A DNA stretch of 64,000 bases from Roseovarius pelagicus. GTDB lineage: Bacteria; Pseudomonadota; Alphaproteobacteria; Rhodobacterales; Rhodobacteraceae. The number at the start of each line of letters is the position of its first letter. Position 1 is the stretch's first letter. The translations under genes were made by a program, and so were the position numbers. The stretch lies in assembly GCF_025639885.1 (NCBI RefSeq), contig NZ_CP106738.1, forward strand, positions 3,782,001-3,846,000, in the 5' to 3' direction. The notes under the pieces were generated by a model. The model was not told the DNA's origin and did not search any database. It worked only from the letters and a program-made list of their open reading frames with translations. This document shows, piece by piece, positions 11,593 through 32,326 of the stretch.

Positions 11593-11744
11593 TTATCCGG
11601 CGCTGTAGCCCATGCTTTAGAGAACGCATTGTTTCCAAATGAGAAACTTGCCGCAAAGGCAGCAGTCCAGTAGTGTTAATGTGTATTAACACGTATCCTA
11701 AGCGGAACTGGGCCGCTCAGGAACAATGTACTGGGGGTACTGCC

Positions 11745-13343
11745 ATGATCTGGGCAATTGCGTTGACCGCACTGGTTGGCTGGGGTCTGTTTGAGTTATT
11801 CGATGATGACGATGATAATGCAGGCGCACCTCCGCCGGATATGGGGGGCGATGCGGTTGGCCCGACGGATGACACCACCGTAGAGGGCACCAGCATCAGC
11901 GAGGTAATCTTTGGCGGCGATACCGATCAGTCGATAAACGGCCGAGGTGGTGACGATACCATCGAAGGTCGTGGTGGTGATGATGTTATCGTGACCGGTG
12001 CCGGTGATGACGTGGTCGACGCCGGGGCAGGCGATGACCGGGTATATGTGCGCGAGGGCGACGATCAGGTGGTTGGCGGTCCGGGTGATGATCAGATCTA
12101 TGGTCGCGAGGGCAATGATACCATGAACGGACAGGAGGGCGATGATGCTCTCTTTGGCAACGAAGGCGACGACAACCTGCGCGGCGCGGCGGGCGATGAC
12201 ACACTGAACGGCGGCGATGGCGATGACAGGTTGAGCGGGCGTGACGATGATGATCGCCTGAACGGTGCCGATGGGGATGATACGTTGCTGGGCGGTGCTG
12301 GCAATGACCTGCTACTGGGCGGGAACGGGATGGATTCGTTGGAAGGCTACAGCGGAGACGATACGCTGAACGGCGGTGATGACGACGATATGCTGAAAGG
12401 CGGCAGCGGCGATGATGACATCAGTGGCGGTGCGACCGGTGCCGATACGCTGTTGGGTCAGGCGGGCAACGACATGCTGCGTGGCCTGCTGGGGGCTGAC
12501 AGCCTAGATGGCGGCGACGGTGCCGACACGTTGGATGGTGGCGAGGGCGCTGATACACTCTTGGGCGCGGAGGGTGATGATCTCTTGCAGGGCCGTGGTG
12601 GCGACGATGCGCTGCACGGGGGCAGGGGGGCTGATCTGGTCTTCGGCCACGAAGGCAATGACACGCTCTTTGGCGATGAAGGCTCTGATACGTTGAACGG
12701 CGGCGGCGGCGATGATGAGCTTGCCGGGGGCGCTGACGACGACCGGCTACGCGGTGACGTCGGCGACGATACCTTGGCTGGTAATGGCGGCGATGATGAG
12801 ATTTTTGCTGATGGCGGTGATGACCTTCTGTTAGGCGGTGACGGCGCAGATACCCTGAATGGCGGTACTGGTCTTGATACGTTGGAAGGTGGTGCAGGAA
12901 CAGACCGGCTAAACGGTGCGGGTGGTAATGATCTTATCGACGGGCGCGACGGGATTTCGGCGTCGCAGGATACCCTGATCGGTGGCGAGGGAGATGACCG
13001 GCTGATTGGTGACGATGGCGATATCCTGTGGGGGGATGGCGGCGTCGACGTGTTCGAGGTTGTGGTCGGTCCGGTAGGATCAGATCCGGTGGTGATCCGC
13101 GATTTGTTCGAGGGCGGAGCCGCGGAACAAGTGCTGTTCTCCAACCCCGACGGATCGTTCCTGTCGGCGGCGCAGGTGTCGGGCGGTGCGCTCGGGATCG
13201 TGGCGCAGGGATCGGGATCGGCGATTCAGCTTGGCGGTACAACGGTGGCTGTCGTTTCAGGCGTGACACCGGCGACACTGATGGCGGACGACGCCTGGAT
13301 TGCCAATCTGGCTCCGGGCGGGCTGGTGCCGGTCACGGCCTGA
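11745..13343 (+). CDS. RTX repeat calcium-binding protein with N-terminal membrane anchor
   Basis: A 532-residue, very acidic protein. It starts with one hydrophobic helix (MIWAIALTALVGWGLFELF), then an Asp run and a Pro/Gly linker. From about residue 55 to 440 there are roughly forty nonapeptide units of the GGxGxDxLx type, which fold as calcium-binding beta-rolls in RTX proteins. The last 90 residues are non-repetitive and may hold a type I secretion signal. The start at ATG 11745 was chosen because the helix follows at once; in-frame codons further upstream add an implausible leader. A type I secretion system is encoded 5 kb downstream. An N-terminal anchor together with RTX repeats is not the classical toxin layout, so a surface or periplasmic calcium-binding role is possible. 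Confidence 0.8.
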   Translation: MIWAIALTALVGWGLFELFDDDDDNAGAPPPDMGGDAVGPTDDTTVEGTSISEVIFGGDTDQSINGRGGDDTIEGRGGDDVIVTGAGDDVVDAGAGDDRVYVREGDDQVVGGPGDDQIYGREGNDTMNGQEGDDALFGNEGDDNLRGAAGDDTLNGGDGDDRLSGRDDDDRLNGADGDDTLLGGAGNDLLLGGNGMDSLEGYSGDDTLNGGDDDDMLKGGSGDDDISGGATGADTLLGQAGNDMLRGLLGADSLDGGDGADTLDGGEGADTLLGAEGDDLLQGRGGDDALHGGRGADLVFGHEGNDTLFGDEGSDTLNGGGGDDELAGGADDDRLRGDVGDDTLAGNGGDDEIFADGGDDLLLGGDGADTLNGGTGLDTLEGGAGTDRLNGAGGNDLIDGRDGISASQDTLIGGEGDDRLIGDDGDILWGDGGVDVFEVVVGPVGSDPVVIRDLFEGGAAEQVLFSNPDGSFLSAAQVSGGALGIVAQGSGSAIQLGGTTVAVVSGVTPATLMADDAWIANLAPGGLVPVTA

Positions 13344-25042: not shown

Positions 25043-25729
25043 TCAGCCGCGCGGGTCGTAAATATCGGACAGGTCCGCCCGTTGGGTGCGAAACCCGTTA
25101 GCAGGGTGATCCGGGTCGGCATATCCAAAGGAAATGGCGCATAGGACGTTGCGGTCATCGGGCAGGTCAAAATGCGCCCGGATCATGGCCGGAAAGGCGG
25201 CAACCGATGCTTGAGCGATGGTGGCGACGCCCCGCGCGGTGGCCGCCAGGCAGAATGCCGTCACGAATCCGCCCGTATCCATTGCCGCATAGGGACCAAG
25301 GTCCGCATCGGCATGCACGATTGCGACATGCGGTGCGCCAAAGAGGTGATAGTTTTGCATGGTCTGGGCTGCACGCCCAGTACGATCGCCGCGCTCAATT
25401 CCTACCGCTTCGTAAAGTTGAAAGCCGCAGGTCCGGCGGCGTTCGCCGTAGGCCCCTTTATAGGCGGTCGGCCATGGCATGTCGGGGGCAGGTTCGGCCG
25501 CTTTTGCCGTTTCGACCAATGCAGTGCGGAATCTGTCAGTGGCCACGCCGTGTGTCACGGTCACCTGCCACGGTTGCGCATTGCACCATGACGGCGCGCG
25601 ACCGGCGTCGCGGATGATTCCACTGATGGTCTCGTCAGGCACGCTTTGCGACAGAAAGGCGCGGCAGCTATAACGCGCAGTCAGAAGATCGCGCAGGATC
25701 GCGGCACGATCGGCGTCGTAATCTTTCAT
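25043..25729 (-). CDS. Nitroreductase-family flavoprotein
   Basis: A 228-residue member of the nitroreductase family, FMN-dependent NAD(P)H oxidoreductases. RYSCRAFLSQSVPDETI matches the FMN-binding N-terminus, GRAPSWCNAQPWQVTV the second conserved block, and TARGVATIAQASVAAFP the later helix. The physiological substrate is unknown. Its ATG overlaps the stop of the upstream zinc-ribbon gene (TGATG), so it is translationally coupled to the XpaC/TelA cluster and may be its last gene. Confidence 0.88.
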   Translation of the reverse strand: MKDYDADRAAILRDLLTARYSCRAFLSQSVPDETISGIIRDAGRAPSWCNAQPWQVTVTHGVATDRFRTALVETAKAAEPAPDMPWPTAYKGAYGERRRTCGFQLYEAVGIERGDRTGRAAQTMQNYHLFGAPHVAIVHADADLGPYAAMDTGGFVTAFCLAATARGVATIAQASVAAFPAMIRAHFDLPDDRNVLCAISFGYADPDHPANGFRTQRADLSDIYDPRG

Positions 25730-26847
25730 CACATCGCCCCTTCGTTCAGCGCCAGTGCAAAGCCGACGGCTCCGGCGATCAGAAGTCCGATCAAGACTGC
25801 AAAACCGATTTTCCACGCGGACCAGGGTCGTGCGCCCTGAACACGACCCGTGCGGCCATTGACCACGAACCGATAAGATTTGCCACGATATTTGTATGCG
25901 GCGAGCCATACCGGTAGCAGGATATGCTTGAACGTTACGTCATTGACCTGTGTCTGGATGTCGTGAATGCGCTGGCGGTCACCGCCGATATCGAACCTGA
26001 CATCGCGCGTGATGATGCTGTCCATATGGCTGCGTGCCTGCACAAAGCCTTCTTCGAGAGGCACAGAGTAAGCCTCGGCGCGGAAACCTGCAAGGAATTC
26101 AGGGCGATAAGGTTCCAGCGCCCCGAGGTCCCATGGTTGCAGGCCGTCTGTGTACTGCTTTGGCAATGACCGCGAGGCAAGCACCAGTACGTCGTCGAAG
26201 AACCGCGCGACCCGGCCGGTAACGCCTCGCCAGCGCACCTTGGCCACGCGGACCTGCTGGCGTTTGCCATTGCGCATGACAGTGCGGGTTTCATAGTAGA
26301 CAGTGCCGCGCTCGCCGCGGTAGGCGGATTTCGTATCGGCATCGAAGGTCCAGTAGGGCACATAGATGCCCTGTAGCTTGCGCCCCTTGCGGGCGTATTC
26401 CTGCAGGCCATTGGGGGCGAACCACAGTTTGCCAAGCCAATCGGTCATGGCGGCACGCGCGGTTTTTTCATCAAGGGCAAAGGGCAGCACACCACGCGGC
26501 TTAATATGGCGGCTGGTGCCTGTGTCTGTCACCACAGGGGTTGCGCAAAAGGGGCATTCGGCAGCGTGATGACCGGGGTCGAATTCGACCTGTGCCGCGC
26601 AATTGGGACATTGCAGAACCCGCGTTTCTTCCATGTCCTGATCGGGCAGATCGACGGCGATGGCACGATCAAAATTAAGCTCTGCCAAGGGATTGGCCCA
26701 AGGGCTGTCATCGGCGACAGGTTCGGTGTTGCCGCAGTGGTCGCACACCAATTGACTCGTTTCAGGAGAAAAGCGGAAATCCGAGCCGCAGTTATCGCAG
26801 GGGAAGCGGTGGGTTTCAGATGGCGTGTCAGCGACGGGCGAGGGCAT
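25729..26847 (-). CDS. Zinc-ribbon membrane protein (TFIIB-type zinc finger, YdjG-like)
   Basis: A 372-residue protein. Two zinc ribbons open it: CDNCG...CDHCGN (residues about 17-39) and CPNCA...CPFCATP (about 80-103). A long soluble middle has TFDADTKSAYRGERG and HILLPVWLAAYKYRGKSYRFVVNGRTG. The C-terminus is a single membrane helix (IGFAVLIGLLIAGAVGFALA). This layout recalls B. subtilis YdjG, which is encoded beside the SPFH protein YdjI and a PspA homologue in a membrane-stress operon. Here too an SPFH gene is directly upstream. The role is probably membrane surveillance, but that is inference. Confidence 0.75.
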   Translation of the reverse strand: MPSPVADTPSETHRFPCDNCGSDFRFSPETSQLVCDHCGNTEPVADDSPWANPLAELNFDRAIAVDLPDQDMEETRVLQCPNCAAQVEFDPGHHAAECPFCATPVVTDTGTSRHIKPRGVLPFALDEKTARAAMTDWLGKLWFAPNGLQEYARKGRKLQGIYVPYWTFDADTKSAYRGERGTVYYETRTVMRNGKRQQVRVAKVRWRGVTGRVARFFDDVLVLASRSLPKQYTDGLQPWDLGALEPYRPEFLAGFRAEAYSVPLEEGFVQARSHMDSIITRDVRFDIGGDRQRIHDIQTQVNDVTFKHILLPVWLAAYKYRGKSYRFVVNGRTGRVQGARPWSAWKIGFAVLIGLLIAGAVGFALALNEGAM

Positions 26848-26869
26848 AGTGTGGTTGTCCTTGGAATTT

Positions 26870-26892
26870 GAGTATTTTTACCAAGAAGAATG
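26870..26892 (+). repeat. Dispersed intergenic motif, copy inside the reverse-strand operon
   Basis: GAGTATTTTTACCAAGAAGAA lies in the 95-base gap between the SPFH and zinc-ribbon genes, oriented against transcription of both. It resembles the copies near 551, 33757, 38457 and 53908. Confidence 0.55.
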
Positions 26893-26942
26893 GCAAGGAC
26901 CACGCGATCTGTCTGAAGACATATGCGCGGACCTTGCGAGGG

Positions 26943-28064
26943 TTAACCAGCGGGCGGGGGCGGCGGCATCACGGTAAAGAGCTGGGCCAGTTCGGCCACG
27001 TCCTCTGCTTGCAGCCAGCCGTCCTGTCCGGCGGTCCAGACGTGACTTTGTCGGGTCAGTTTGCCGTCACGCACCATGCGGCCCATGGCTGCCTTGGAGT
27101 AGGGGCCGTGAGTCTCGCCATTTTCTGCGATGTGCCATACACGCTCGACCGGCGGCGGGGGCGGCATCTGGGACGAGGGCGCGTTCGTGGCAGGGGCTGT
27201 GCCCCATGGGCCGCTCTGATCGGCCATCTGCTGCGCCATGGCAATGCCCATACCGGCGCCCATGCCCGCAGCCATGCCGCCACCAGCCGGGTTACGGGCG
27301 GCCTCTGTCATCGCCTCGGCGGCGCTATATTGAGTGTAGCGCCCCAGATCACCGGCCACCCCGACGGATGTGCGTTTATCCAATGCGGCCTCGACCGCGG
27401 GTGGCAGTGAGATATTCTCGATGTAAAGCTCGGGGATAGAGAGACCGTATCCGGCGACTGTCTGGCTGATTGCAGCGGCCACCAGCTTGCCCAGATCAGC
27501 GGTGTTGGCGGCCATGTCGAGGACCGGAATACCCGACGAGGCGATGACGCGGGAAAACTCCTGCACAATGATATTGCGGATTTGATAGCTGATCTCGTCC
27601 ATGGTGAATTCGCCATCGGTGCCGACGATTTCCAGCAGGAATTTGGCCGGGTCAGCCACGCGCACGGAATAGGTTCCGAAGGCGCGCAGGCGTGTGGGGC
27701 CGAACTCCGGGTCGCGCAACATGATCGGGTTCTTGGTGCCCCATTTCAGATCGTTGAAACGGGTGGTGTTGACGTAATAAATCTCGGACTTGAACGGGCT
27801 TTTAAAACCATGATCCCAGTGTTGCAGTGTTGTCATGATCGGCATGTTGTTGGTTTCGAGCATGTAGAGACCGGGGGTGAAGACATCCGCCAGTTGCCCC
27901 TCGTGGACAAAAACCGCCGCCTGTCCTTCGCGCACGGTCAGCTTGGCGCCGTACTTGATTTCGTGTCCTTCGCGCTGGAACCGCCAAACCATCGTATCAC
28001 GGGTGTCGTCGGTCCAGTGGATGACGTCGATGAATTCGCCGGTGAGAAAATCGAAAATACCCAT
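26943..28064 (-). CDS. SPFH-domain protein with C-terminal GYF_2 (DUF4339) domain, YdjI-like
   Basis: A 373-residue protein. Residues about 10-250 are an SPFH/band-7-like domain of the kind named virion core protein/YdjI, with FGTYSVRVADPAKFLLEIVG and the long helix region ending in AALDKRTSVGVAGDLGRYTQY. A Gly/Met-rich linker (GGGMAAGMGAGMGIAMA) and a Pro run lead to a GYF_2 module, WHIAENGETHGPYSK...HVWTAGQDGWLQAEDV. SPFH proteins form membrane scaffolds; GYF_2 modules probably bind proline-rich partners. The protein itself ends in a Pro run. The start has AGGAG at normal spacing. It belongs to the xpaC-telA operon. Confidence 0.85.
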   Translation of the reverse strand: MGIFDFLTGEFIDVIHWTDDTRDTMVWRFQREGHEIKYGAKLTVREGQAAVFVHEGQLADVFTPGLYMLETNNMPIMTTLQHWDHGFKSPFKSEIYYVNTTRFNDLKWGTKNPIMLRDPEFGPTRLRAFGTYSVRVADPAKFLLEIVGTDGEFTMDEISYQIRNIIVQEFSRVIASSGIPVLDMAANTADLGKLVAAAISQTVAGYGLSIPELYIENISLPPAVEAALDKRTSVGVAGDLGRYTQYSAAEAMTEAARNPAGGGMAAGMGAGMGIAMAQQMADQSGPWGTAPATNAPSSQMPPPPPVERVWHIAENGETHGPYSKAAMGRMVRDGKLTRQSHVWTAGQDGWLQAEDVAELAQLFTVMPPPPPAG

Positions 28065-28085
28065 CTGGTGATCTCCTGTTTGTAA

Positions 28086-29084
28086 TTAGCTGGGGCCGAT
28101 GCCGCGTTGCGCGATCAATTCGCGTAGTATCGGCCGTGCCTCTTCGGCAGTCATGCCGGGCGTCAGGCGGGGCGAGTAGAGCAGGCGCAGCAGTTCTTCG
28201 TCGTGGGTGGTCAGCAGCGCAAATTCATCGTCATCGTTAAAGATCGATGGTCGCGCGCGCGGGCTGTCGTTGGCGAGGCCAAGCCCTTGGGCGAGTTCCT
28301 CGTGGATGCACGAGCGGCGCATCAGGTCCGGGTGTTCCGCCCGGATAAAGGCGATGGCGCGGCGATAGGTGTGATCGTCCTTGGTGTCCGAGAACGCGAC
28401 CACCAGACAGTGGATCGAGCGCGGCAGTGTCTGGAACAGCAGCACCGACGACTGGTTGATGTTGGGCACCAGTTGCTGAATGCGCGTCACAGCAGCGCCG
28501 CGGTCATCTTCGCCTACGATCAGCACGTGAAAATTGGCATCCTGAGTGGTGCCTGCCGAAATCGGGTGCCCGGTGATCCGTGCCAGACGGTCGGCATAGG
28601 CCACGACGTTTTGCACGTCGGTCTTGCGCTGTGCCTCGGGTACGGAATCGCCGAATTCGACCTTCATGCGTACCGGCGTCGTCCATTTGCGCAGCCCGCC
28701 CGCCTGACCGTTGGATCGGGCGAGGCCGCGATTGCGTTCGTATTCGTCATAGAATGCGATGCGTTCGAAATTGCGCAACAAATCGTTGTCGGAATAGGGG
28801 GTATCGACACCGCCACCACCGCTGCGCAGCAGACCCTGAGCCAGCAGGTTCGCCTGAACCCGACTGTAGTATCGCGCCATGTTCTGGCTGCGCACTGATG
28901 GGCCGGTGGCATGCGGAGTGGGAGTGGGTTTCAGGTTCGTTGGGCGCGCCTTTGGCGATGTGGACGGTGGTGTCACGGGCATATCGCACGCAGCCAGAGC
29001 CACGAGCCCAACGCCCATAACCGCCGCCCTTATGATCGCCACGATGCCCAAGCCGCGGTTACGCACCGGCTGCCGTGCCGACAT
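28086..29084 (-). CDS. DUF2927 lipoprotein, possible metalloprotease
   Basis: A 332-residue exported lipoprotein: signal helix then lipobox ALAA-C (Cys about 33). A Pro/Thr/Ser-rich linker precedes the DUF2927 domain. Near its end it has CIHEELAQGLGLANDSP, a HExx-type motif, followed by SIFNDDDEFALLTTHDE. This could form a zinc peptidase site, but the second His of HExxH is absent and no activity is proven. GTG at 29090 and ATG at 29084 are both possible starts; ATG was used. It overlaps the telA 3' end by 26 bases, so the two are coupled in one operon. Confidence 0.78.
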   Translation of the reverse strand: MSARQPVRNRGLGIVAIIRAAVMGVGLVALAACDMPVTPPSTSPKARPTNLKPTPTPHATGPSVRSQNMARYYSRVQANLLAQGLLRSGGGGVDTPYSDNDLLRNFERIAFYDEYERNRGLARSNGQAGGLRKWTTPVRMKVEFGDSVPEAQRKTDVQNVVAYADRLARITGHPISAGTTQDANFHVLIVGEDDRGAAVTRIQQLVPNINQSSVLLFQTLPRSIHCLVVAFSDTKDDHTYRRAIAFIRAEHPDLMRRSCIHEELAQGLGLANDSPRARPSIFNDDDEFALLTTHDEELLRLLYSPRLTPGMTAEEARPILRELIAQRGIGPS

Positions 29085-30256
29085 TGTCACCGGTGCCGTC
29101 GCCGCGTGCCTTGGCCGATGCCAGCGTGTCGCGCAGATCGGCTTCCATCTTCTTGAGGTCGGTTTCGGCAGCGGCGCGGCGGGCCTTGCCCTCGTCTGCT
29201 ATTTGCAGGGACTCCTCGATCGTGCCGATGAGGTCGGCATTGGCCTGTTTCACGGCCTCTATGTCGAACACACCACGCTCCATCTCGGTGCGAGATCATC
29301 TTGTTGCTCTCGCGCAGATTTTTTGCGTTCGCGGTCAGCAACTCGTTGGTCAGGTCGTTGGCATCACGAACGGCAGCGGCAGCTTCGGCAGAGCGTTGGA
29401 TGGTCACCGCCTGTGCCAGCTGAGTTTCCCACAGAGGCACGGTGTTCACGAGGGTCGAGTTGATTTTGGTTACGAGGCTTTTGTCGTTTTCCTGCACCAA
29501 TCGGATCGAGGGCAGGGATTGCATCGTCACCTGACGTGTTAGTTTCAGATCGTGCACCCGGCGTTCCAAATCATCGCGCGCGGCGCGAAGATCGCGCAGT
29601 TCCTGCGCTTTCATTACCTGATCTTTTTCGGGCGCCTTGGACACTTTGGCTTCCATTGCGGGGATGTCTTTTTCGTCCAGTACCCGCAGCTTCTCTTCGC
29701 CTGCCGCGATGTAGAGCGCCAGCTCGTCATAGAAGGCCAGAGTTTTCTCATAGAGCATGTCGAGCGATTTGATGTCTTTGAGCAGCGTGTGCTCGTGCTG
29801 GTGCAGATCTTCAGTCACCTTGTCGATCTGGCCCTGTACTTCTTCAAACCGTGCTGTGAACTTGGCGAAGGGGGCCGCACGGCCCAGCAGACGCTCCCAC
29901 CATGTGCGTTTGCGCCGCACATCCAGTTCTGAGACGGAAAAGCCGCGGATCGTGGTAACGATCCCGCGCAGGCTGTCGCCCGCGGGGCCAACATCCTTGT
30001 TGCGCACGCCCTGAAGCATGGACTGTGAAATGACTTGTAACTCTGCCTGCGCGGCAGACCCGAAGGAGACGATTGATTGCGTATCCTCCATGTCGATCTC
30101 GCCCATGCGCTTCTTGATCGCATCGCTAAGGGGTTTGTCGGCATCCTTGAGTAACACGATATCAGTGGCGCCTTTGGGCTCTGGCAGCACGACGGCGCTG
30201 ATCTCTTCGACTTGGGTCAGTGTGGCAGCGGCCTTTTGACGGACTGTGTCGGACAT
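29059..30256 (-). pseudogene. telA: TelA-family toxic anion resistance protein, frameshifted
   Basis: TelA/KlaA family (tellurite resistance and, more broadly, envelope stress). From ATG 30256 the frame is normal for about 319 residues, rich in long helices (for example GKFTARFEEVQGQIDKV-like segments and AQELRDLRAARDDLERRVHDLK). At SNKMI the frame breaks. The expected RTEMERGVFDIEAVKQAN continues in another frame down to TAA at 29059. Removing one base in CGAGATC (plus strand 29291-29297) restores a protein of about 398 residues, the usual family length. As read, translation ends out of frame at 29087. It lies between xpaC and a DUF2927 lipoprotein. A sequencing error is a real alternative to a mutation. 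Confidence 0.83.
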
Positions 30257-30269
30257 GTGATGTTTCCTC

Positions 30270-31166
30270 TCAACTCGGGGAATTATGCGTGAGGTGAACG
30301 CCTTCGCGCTCAAGGCGTTCGCGCAGCACTTCGATTTCGACCTCGAGATCACTGTGGCTGTCGCGTAGGAGTTTCTGGGTTTTGGCGTCGAAATTCGTCT
30401 CAAGATCGCGCAGCAGGGTGAGATAATCCTCTCGCGCCTGTTTATCGGCGCTGCGAGCATAGATATCCGCAAACTTGATCGTCGCATCACGCGCACCCAT
30501 CAGATAGACGCCCATGTACTTGCGGGCGGCTGTCAGGTCGCGTGGGTCTTCCTCAACAGTGCGGAGCATATCGCGGACTGCGTCCTGAAACCGCTCCAGC
30601 CGGGCTTCGATCTGACGATCGCCCGCGCGTTTGATCGCGTCACTCATTGCCGCCAGATGGGCCTCGGCCTTTTCAACCGCACGAGCGACACGATCCGTCT
30701 GGAACTGGTCAATGCCTTCCATGCCTTTTGATTTCATCGGATCGATGCCGAACGAGAAAATATGCAATCCGGTGGTGACGCCGCCAAACAGCAGCGGCGC
30801 GACCAGACCGGGCTCGACCTTGTAAGCTGCGATGGCGATACCCAGACCGGCCAGCGCGGATGAGAACATCTTGCGCGGGATGCCGGGCGCGCGCGCCACC
30901 TTGCGACTGGCGAATTCGGCCTCGGCGCGCAAACCATCGCGCAAGAGCCACGCCGACAGGGCCAGTAGCCCCGCGGCGACAACGCCCAGCGTCAGTCCCG
31001 CCGCACCGGACGTGAGCGAGGTAAACAACACCAGAGCAGCCGGCAGGAACATCAGGTTCGACCGAGCACCTGCGGGGTCCACCCGTACAGATGCGCGGCG
31101 TGGTCCTGCGCCGTCAGATGCGTCGGATCCATCCGGGCTGAACTTACCACCGTATTTCTGGGCCAT
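30270..31166 (-). CDS. XpaC-family (5-bromo-4-chloroindolyl phosphate hydrolysis) membrane protein
   Basis: A 298-residue protein of the XpaC family, which is nearly always encoded next to TelA. The N-terminus is polar (MAQKYGGKFSPDG). Two or three membrane segments follow at about residues 35-80 (NLMFLPAALVLFTSLTSGAAGL...) and near AGLGIAIAAYKV. A charged, helical C-terminal half ends LRERLEREGVHL. It has no known enzymatic residues; the family name comes from a phenotype. The start at 31166 was chosen because the upstream frame belongs to other genes. The stop is 14 bases before telA. It is the second gene of the operon, after a small membrane peptide. Confidence 0.85.
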   Translation of the reverse strand: MAQKYGGKFSPDGSDASDGAGPRRASVRVDPAGARSNLMFLPAALVLFTSLTSGAAGLTLGVVAAGLLALSAWLLRDGLRAEAEFASRKVARAPGIPRKMFSSALAGLGIAIAAYKVEPGLVAPLLFGGVTTGLHIFSFGIDPMKSKGMEGIDQFQTDRVARAVEKAEAHLAAMSDAIKRAGDRQIEARLERFQDAVRDMLRTVEEDPRDLTAARKYMGVYLMGARDATIKFADIYARSADKQAREDYLTLLRDLETNFDAKTQKLLRDSHSDLEVEIEVLRERLEREGVHLTHNSPS

Positions 31167-31171
31167 ACCCG

Positions 31172-31390
31172 TCAAAGCCCCCCGAGAAAGCCGCTGGTCA
31201 CACCCAGCATAAGCACAAGTAGCGCCACAAAACCGACTTTCTGCATTGTCGTTCTCCTTGCGATACTTCCTGACAGTCCACGCACGGCAGTTTGACTGTC
31301 TTCGGTTGCACGCGAAACCGATGAGACGACCATAGCAGCCAATGCAATCAATACCATGATTGCGCAAACCAATAAAAATGCACGTCCCAT
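31172..31390 (-). CDS. Small membrane protein preceding xpaC, with an internal start
   Basis: An open frame of 72 codons with two hydrophobic helices. The second half, from ATG 31246, is a 24-residue peptide (MQKVGFVALL...GGL) with its own excellent ribosome site, AAGGAGA, eight bases upstream. The upstream start at 31390 (MGRAFLLV) has no clear site. The short product alone is therefore a serious alternative to the full one. The stop is five bases before the xpaC start, implying coupling. I do not recognise a family; a short Gly-rich helix suggests a partner or regulator of the XpaC/TelA membrane proteins. Confidence 0.55.
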   Translation of the reverse strand: MGRAFLLVCAIMVLIALAAMVVSSVSRATEDSQTAVRGLSGSIARRTTMQKVGFVALLVLMLGVTSGFLGGL

Positions 31391-31507
31391 TCGGTATCTG
31401 GTTTCCGTTTCTGACCTTTATCGCCTTGGTTAAAACCTAAGTGATGGAGGGACTGGTTGCTAGGGGGAACCTGCGTGACCGGTCCCCCCTGTTTTCTGCG
31501 CTGCGAT

Positions 31508-32326
31508 TCAGTGCGATTTACCGGCGCGACGTTCGGCGTTCAATTTTCGGGTATAGCCCGATTGGATGACTTCGACCGCAACCAGAACCACCACGCTGAA
31601 ATAGAATGTCGTCTTGGACATTGGCACCACTTCGTAACCAAAGAACTTTAACGCCAATGTGTCGTCATGCATGGCATGCGCGGCCGCTTGCCCGGCCTCG
31701 CCTAACAAAACGACGCCGACGATCAGCAGGATGAAGAGGCCCAGAACCTCGTACATCCGGTTTTTCTCTAGAAAACGGGTGACTCCATCGGCCAGCACCA
31801 GCATCGCCAGCCCTGACAGGATGATCGCAAAGGCCAGAATCGGAAAGACATCCGTGATGGCTAGCGCTGACAGCACGGAATCGAACGAAAAGATCAGATT
31901 GGTGAGAACAATAAGCGCGATCACTTTGGCCGCCGATTTGCCTCCCTTATCTGCCAGATCGGCATTCAGATGCTCGACGCTCAGCATGTGTGCGATTTCC
32001 TGAACCGCCGTATGTATGATGAAAACACCTCCGAACACAAAAACGCAGGTGGCGAAATTCACCCCGCCCTCGATCACGCCGGTCCAGTTGAGTATGAAAA
32101 ACGGCTCTGCCATCGCGTCGATCAGCCGGATCATCACGAACAGCAGCACCACCCGCAGCACAACCGCGATGATGATCCCCCACATGCGCACCGCCTTTTG
32201 CATGGCCACAGGTGCACGTTGCGATTCGATCGAGATGTAGAGAAGATTGTCAAAGCCTAGAACAGCCTGAAGAAAACATAGCATCAACAGATTGCCGAGG
32301 TTTTCAGCGGTCAGAAGGTCTGCCAT
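31508..32326 (-). CDS. TerC/YjbE-family integral membrane protein
   Basis: A 272-residue TerC-family protein with about seven to eight membrane helices. The family pattern is clear: NLLMLCFLQAVLGFDNLLYISIES carries the conserved acidic residue in an early helix, and VLTNLIFSFDSVLSALAIT the matching one in the second half. TerC proteins are linked to tellurite resistance, and some members to manganese export during exoenzyme metallation. Its position beside xpaC/telA, on the same strand but about 120 bases upstream of that cluster, supports a common stress role. The start was set at MADLLTAENL. Confidence 0.88.
   Translation of the reverse strand: MADLLTAENLGNLLMLCFLQAVLGFDNLLYISIESQRAPVAMQKAVRMWGIIIAVVLRVVLLFVMIRLIDAMAEPFFILNWTGVIEGGVNFATCVFVFGGVFIIHTAVQEIAHMLSVEHLNADLADKGGKSAAKVIALIVLTNLIFSFDSVLSALAITDVFPILAFAIILSGLAMLVLADGVTRFLEKNRMYEVLGLFILLIVGVVLLGEAGQAAAHAMHDDTLALKFFGYEVVPMSKTTFYFSVVVLVAVEVIQSGYTRKLNAERRAGKSH

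Follow-up and report, generated by a model that had tools for sequence, protein, structure and literature searches.

Two groups of envelope-stress genes, each described in Firmicutes, are the closest known counterparts of a minus-strand gene cluster examined here in a 64,000-nucleotide window of the Roseovarius pelagicus genome (GCF_025639885.1, contig NZ_CP106738.1, 3,782,001-3,846,000; all coordinates below are positions in this window). The first is the pspA-ydjGHI locus of Bacillus subtilis, in which an SPFH Band_7 protein without an evident transmembrane (TM) segment, YdjI, is encoded together with YdjG, in which a pair of zinc ribbons, an additional domain and a TM segment are described (PMC11237479). 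YdjI is reported as predicted to have no membrane domain, its placement at the membrane requires YdjG and YdjH, and the three proteins form a network with PspA (PMC8581546). The second is the adjacent pair of xpaC and telA genes (Listeria lmo1966-1967 and Lactococcus lactis llmg_1115-1116), for which responses to envelope stress are reported. For a Listeria telA mutant, sensitivity is cited as raised 4-fold towards nisin and 2-fold towards tellurite (PMC12791056); in work on membrane-protein overproduction, the transcriptome table gives 10.3 for the L. lactis xpaC-like gene and 3.44 for telA (PMC3139573); and Enterococcus faecium xpaC is reported to be up 7-fold in a liaR mutant (PMC10269926). 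YceGHI overexpression is cited in connection with nisin resistance in B. subtilis (PMC7864038), and a Paracoccus TelA is listed as detected in a plastic biofilm (PMC11962581).

The R. pelagicus cluster brings the two groups together. Its linked core consists of genes for a microprotein, XpaC, TelA, an SPFH protein ending in a GYF domain (SPFH-GYF) and a zinc-ribbon protein (ZnR), with a gene for a DUF2927 lipoprotein lying between those of TelA and SPFH-GYF. We tentatively propose that it encodes a conserved, PspA-independent membrane-surveillance complex of this bacterial family, and regard membrane surveillance in a wide sense as its likeliest function. As in the Firmicutes pair, xpaC and telA are adjacent, but here they are joined to SPFH-GYF, ZnR and DUF2927 genes; as in B. 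subtilis, an SPFH protein is encoded with a double zinc-ribbon TM protein, but the B. subtilis locus has PspA, whereas the R. pelagicus genome has no PspA match (PF04012) and its cluster adds XpaC, TelA, the microprotein and DUF2927. Among open-licence papers we find no description of the combined set in the matches listed. The features are as follows.

31508..32326, minus strand: TerC-family membrane protein, an optional neighbour (PF03741, 119.9 bits)
31172..31246, minus strand: 24-residue microprotein with one TM segment and its own AAGGAG site, the C-terminal part of a 72-aa open reading frame (ORF) at 31172-31390
30270..31166, minus strand: XpaC-like protein (PF10112, 84.5 bits; cut-off 29.8)
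29059..30256, minus strand: TelA, in two frames (PF05816, two pieces of 299 and 50 bits)
28086..29066, minus strand: DUF2927 lipoprotein, GTG start, lipobox Cys at about 28988 (PF11150, 227.9 bits)
26943..28064, minus strand: SPFH (Band_7_1) protein with a C-terminal GYF_2 domain (PF13421, 334.5 bits; PF14237, 71.3 bits)
25729..26847, minus strand: ZnR, of YdjG-like architecture, with two zinc ribbons at the N-terminus and a TM-like segment at the C-terminus (sub-threshold zinc-ribbon matches)
25043..25729, minus strand: nitroreductase-family protein, an optional neighbour (PF00881, 93.3 bits)

Domain names come from a Pfam scan of nine cluster sequences, which left only the small ORF without a name, and gene starts were picked by eye. 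The scan agrees with the initial annotation on the identities of TerC, XpaC, TelA, DUF2927, SPFH-GYF and the nitroreductase; its zinc-ribbon protein has matches that look real but score 22.5 and 20 bits, below the Pfam cut-off. The genes were described as overlapping or closely spaced on one strand, and this is what the sequence reads: the DUF2927 GTG start lies over the TelA stop, the ZnR and nitroreductase genes also overlap, and the gaps are 117 bp between TerC and the 72-aa ORF, 5 bp between microprotein and XpaC, 13 bp between XpaC and TelA, 21 bp between DUF2927 and SPFH, and 95 bp between SPFH and ZnR. The promoter scan gave 2 elements, where shuffled sequence gave 3.0 on average, and the terminator scan 10, where it gave 7.0. 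By eye there is a possible 9-pair stem without a T-run in the interval between TerC and the microprotein (about 31440-31490, minus strand); it is not among the scan-listed elements and could be regulatory. Seven cluster proteins gave no family among the PADLOC models of anti-phage defence systems at E 0.001.

Conservation and coinciding losses

Loci were compared among the best 80 of 581 TelA relatives, mostly from Rhodobacteraceae and chosen by TelA likeness, so that every locus has TelA by construction; counts of loci out of 71, 73 or 78 refer only to those with enough flanking sequence. XpaC adjoins TelA in all 80, DUF2927 is present in 68/71, SPFH in 70/71 and ZnR in 69/71, and the four core genes share one strand in 69/71. 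The linkage across relatives that was suggested as a check on the cluster thus holds for XpaC-TelA-DUF2927-SPFH-ZnR. TerC (37/73 loci) and the nitroreductase (12/71), which had been counted in with the set, are optional flanks; other flanking genes encode RluB (60/73) and Dtd (52/71). In one relative a fatty-acid desaturase-family gene (PF00487, L049:6721-7842) lies upstream of xpaC at the place occupied by TerC in others.

A second sample, of 149 genomes, was drawn at the level of the order. All are listed under the window's own family, some are of organisms already represented among the named loci, and the sample is not independent of these loci. TelA is matched in 147 of these genomes, XpaC in 146, DUF2927 in 148 and SPFH in 146 (145 over the cut-off). 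DUF2927 is multi-copy in genomes of the family, and therefore the genome count alone does not show a cluster copy. The losses largely coincide. TelA has no match in G011 and G106 and is a weak, diverged ORF of 44.8 bits in G085; XpaC has no match in the same three; and the cluster-type SPFH is missing from these and from G081, with a 21-bit match under the cut-off in G011. Of nine genomes searched for ZnR, five have it, and the four that lack it are exactly those just named. G011, G106 and G081 keep the DUF2927 gene in place at the locus, though it normally lies between those of TelA and SPFH. In the G085 locus (L128, 9.2-11.3 kb) the weak TelA-like ORF stands between RluB and nitroreductase/Dtd genes and most of the cluster is lost. 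SPFH and ZnR remain paired though separated from TelA in G124 and G048.

TelA is rarer outside the family, with matches in 11/115 genomes of a class draw (2 of the 11 from the family itself) and 39/199 of a phylum draw (12 of the 39). Of 33 further stretches that were fetched, three (L128-L130) belong to the window's family and 30 do not. The four-gene core without DUF2927 is present in 2/30 of the latter, L119 (genome G204) and L126 (G211), from two other families of the class, and L131 (G420) has an XpaC-TelA-GYF triad whose SPFH part is a weak match. The rest have TelA with XpaC, TelA alone, or nothing by the relatives' profiles, which may be too narrow for such distant relatives.

Components of the cluster

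The small peptide predicted upstream of xpaC corresponds to a conserved small protein, but its conserved unit is the last 24 residues (31172-31246), which have their own AAGGAG ribosome-binding site, and not the whole 72-aa ORF; the longer form adds a first TM segment present in some relatives only. A first, stricter pattern matched 24/78 loci, and a looser hydrophobicity rule, which may admit chance ORFs, finds in 75/78 a hydrophobic ORF whose end is near the xpaC start. Of these 75, 57 have a Shine-Dalgarno-like site together with a start placed 22-32 codons ahead of the stop, and differences at codon positions 1/2/3 number 2970/1676/4702 across 363 close pairs, a coding-like distribution. 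By reading of the sequences, L165 and L167 have a counterpart as well, and none is clear beside XpaC in L119, L126 or L163.

XpaC, as read from its sequence, has N-terminal hydrophobic segments and a helical C-terminal part. An extra, weakly similar XpaC-like ORF (98-114 bits by the relatives' profile) lies just upstream of xpaC in L073, L091, L107 and L113, at about 7 kb; at a threshold of 0.001, Pfam matches nothing in the L073 copy. The assignment of TelA to its family is upheld by PF05816, but a single open frame is not: the domain is broken across two frames near 29283-29297, at a short inverted repeat (29282-29296), with pieces covering PF05816 positions 4-275 and 278-331. Among the listed rows of the 149-genome search R. 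pelagicus alone has TelA split over frames, so that, as far as sampled, the break belongs to this assembly alone and reflects either a recent mutation or an error in sequencing. Programmed frameshifting as a general feature of TelA is rejected, since no stop interrupts the TelA matches listed for relatives.

The architectures of the SPFH and zinc-ribbon proteins agree with the proposed likeness to the published B. subtilis pair, YdjI and YdjG: a PF13421 SPFH protein (one of the control genomes matching this family is that of B. subtilis) without an evident TM segment, and a partner with two zinc ribbons and a TM segment. At least four CxxC motifs occur within the first 160 residues in 71/71 ZnR relatives, and 70/71 have a TM-like end. 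The B. subtilis SPFH protein is described with a C-terminal zinc ribbon, whereas the cluster protein ends in GYF_2, flanked by two poly-proline tracts. Among 75 full-length SPFH relatives the GYF signature is found in 74, at least three prolines before GYF in 72 and at the protein end in 73. Recruitment of proline-rich partners by GYF_2, as first suggested, is possible, yet the nearest proline-rich tracts are those of the SPFH protein itself, which may self-assemble through them. The B. subtilis module also has a YpeB/NTF2-like domain in the middle of YdjG and a TPM protein, YdjH. No TPM match is present among the nine cluster sequences; the genome was not searched for it. In several relatives cytochrome b561-like genes (PF01292) stand between SPFH and ZnR (L080:12363-12890, L111:12758-13360, L095:13597-14352) and, with the occasional nitroreductase, hint at a redox link.

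The DUF2927 protein had been taken as an outer-envelope lipoprotein with an HEE motif. The lipobox is seen, and the protein may lie in either membrane: an Asp follows the lipobox Cys in R. pelagicus, and D or E stands there in 35/71 copies with a recognised lipobox. HEE, however, is not the conserved element, since its H is replaced by Q or E in 9/76 cluster copies and EExxQxxGxxND is invariant in 76/76. The predicted structure matches the metzincin catalytic-domain fold, aligning to matrix metalloproteinase (MMP) domains over about 150 residues. The zinc-binding motif HExxHxxGxxH is not kept: in a register that we infer, the invariant motif retains the catalytic Glu, the Gly and the final Asp of HExGHxxGxxHD, with E, Q and N in place of its three histidines. 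The sequence PSIFND lies at about Met-turn distance, judged by sequence spacing, and the Met-turn Met is apparently absent. The model thus predicts a pseudo-metzincin lipoprotein with a seemingly rewritten zinc site; histidine positions are likewise reported as replaced in pseudo-ADAMs such as ADAM23 QSLAQNLGIQWE (PMC11266112). Paralogues off the cluster (L151:3217-4671, L159:3254-4165, L160:3435-4418) keep the EE..Q..G pattern, and one of these off-cluster paralogues is a 485-aa frame with weak TPR matches after the domain. No literature description of DUF2927 was found among open-licence papers.

Function and competing explanations

In the arrangement that we envisage, XpaC and the microprotein would hold a helical TelA at the inner membrane, where it would fill the effector place held by PspA in B. 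subtilis. SPFH-GYF copies could chain into a scaffold by binding of their GYF domains to the poly-proline tracts of neighbours, with ZnR as its membrane anchor, and the metzincin-like cleft of DUF2927, having no zinc site, would bind rather than cut a polypeptide and so report envelope damage. A more far-reaching version, in which the rewritten zinc site of DUF2927 takes a periplasmic polypeptide as the damage signal for a PspA-free repair machine, and TelA, held by XpaC and the microprotein, replaces PspA on a self-polymerising SPFH-GYF/ZnR scaffold, is improbable. The wider membrane-surveillance reading draws on the linkage, the near-universality and coinciding losses, the pairing of SPFH with ZnR when moved and the recurrence of the core in other families, together with the absence of PspA here, the response of homologues to envelope stress, and the metzincin-like fold with its rewritten motif. 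If true, it would point to a way in which membranes may be guarded in bacteria that lack PspA; TelA and XpaC, which are named for toxic anions and mechanistically obscure, would gain a testable context, and DUF2927 a fold and a mechanism class.

Several observations weigh against membrane surveillance by such a complex. Only four genomes show losses, neighbouring genes may vanish in one event, and the G011 contig ends beside DUF2927. G081 retains XpaC-TelA-DUF2927 without SPFH-ZnR, XpaC is far from TelA in the six genomes of genus g7, and DUF2927 survives without the core. The best Foldseek E-value for the DUF2927-metzincin match is 5e-3; profile searches against solved structures gave no metzincin for it (the best E-values, 1.8 and 0.023, belong to unrelated proteins), and no peptidase family came up in Pfam even at E 10, so that the predicted fold and the motif register are the basis of the metzincin reading. 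TelA is frameshifted in this genome and its predicted model is poor. The 'PspA-type' label given to the module is misleading, as PspA is unmatched here and matched in 48/149 genomes of the family; these 48 carry both options.

The nearest rival is membrane-protein quality control, in which SPFH and ZnR organise the turnover of misfolded membrane proteins, the pseudo-protease DUF2927 holds or presents periplasmic segments, and XpaC-TelA assist. SPFH proteins such as HflK/C act with a protease, and the predicted pseudo-metzincin fold would suit such a role, but the fixed members of the cluster include no protease gene and we consider this explanation improbable. The rise reported for xpaC (10.3) and telA (3.44) of L. 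lactis in the membrane-protein overproduction study (PMC3139573) also speaks for it. There may alternatively be no single machine, only genes that act separately in a conserved neighbourhood, as the likewise conserved flanks RluB (60/73) and Dtd (52/71), the persistence of DUF2927 without the core and the unlinked XpaC of genus g7 would allow; the coinciding losses with DUF2927 retained between the lost genes, the association of SPFH and ZnR even when parted from TelA, and the same core in other families make this doubtful. A tellurite or toxic-anion resistance operon is suggested by the family names and by the 2-fold greater tellurite sensitivity cited for the Listeria telA mutant, but the larger effect cited there is on nisin (4-fold; PMC12791056), TelA is near-universal in the family (147/149), unlike a niche resistance, TerC is optional (37/73 loci) and no TerD-type match is present among the nine cluster sequences scanned; we regard this as very improbable.

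Elsewhere in the window, the plus-strand segment 15289-23512 encodes a 1135-aa protein made up of bacterial Ig-like domains; next come an outer-membrane efflux protein and, by reading of the ORFs, ABC transporter-like and membrane-fusion-like proteins, an arrangement resembling a type I secretion locus together with its adhesin. Near it, a 556-aa ORF (11673-13343, plus strand) contains RTX calcium-binding repeats (PF00353, 13 stretches).

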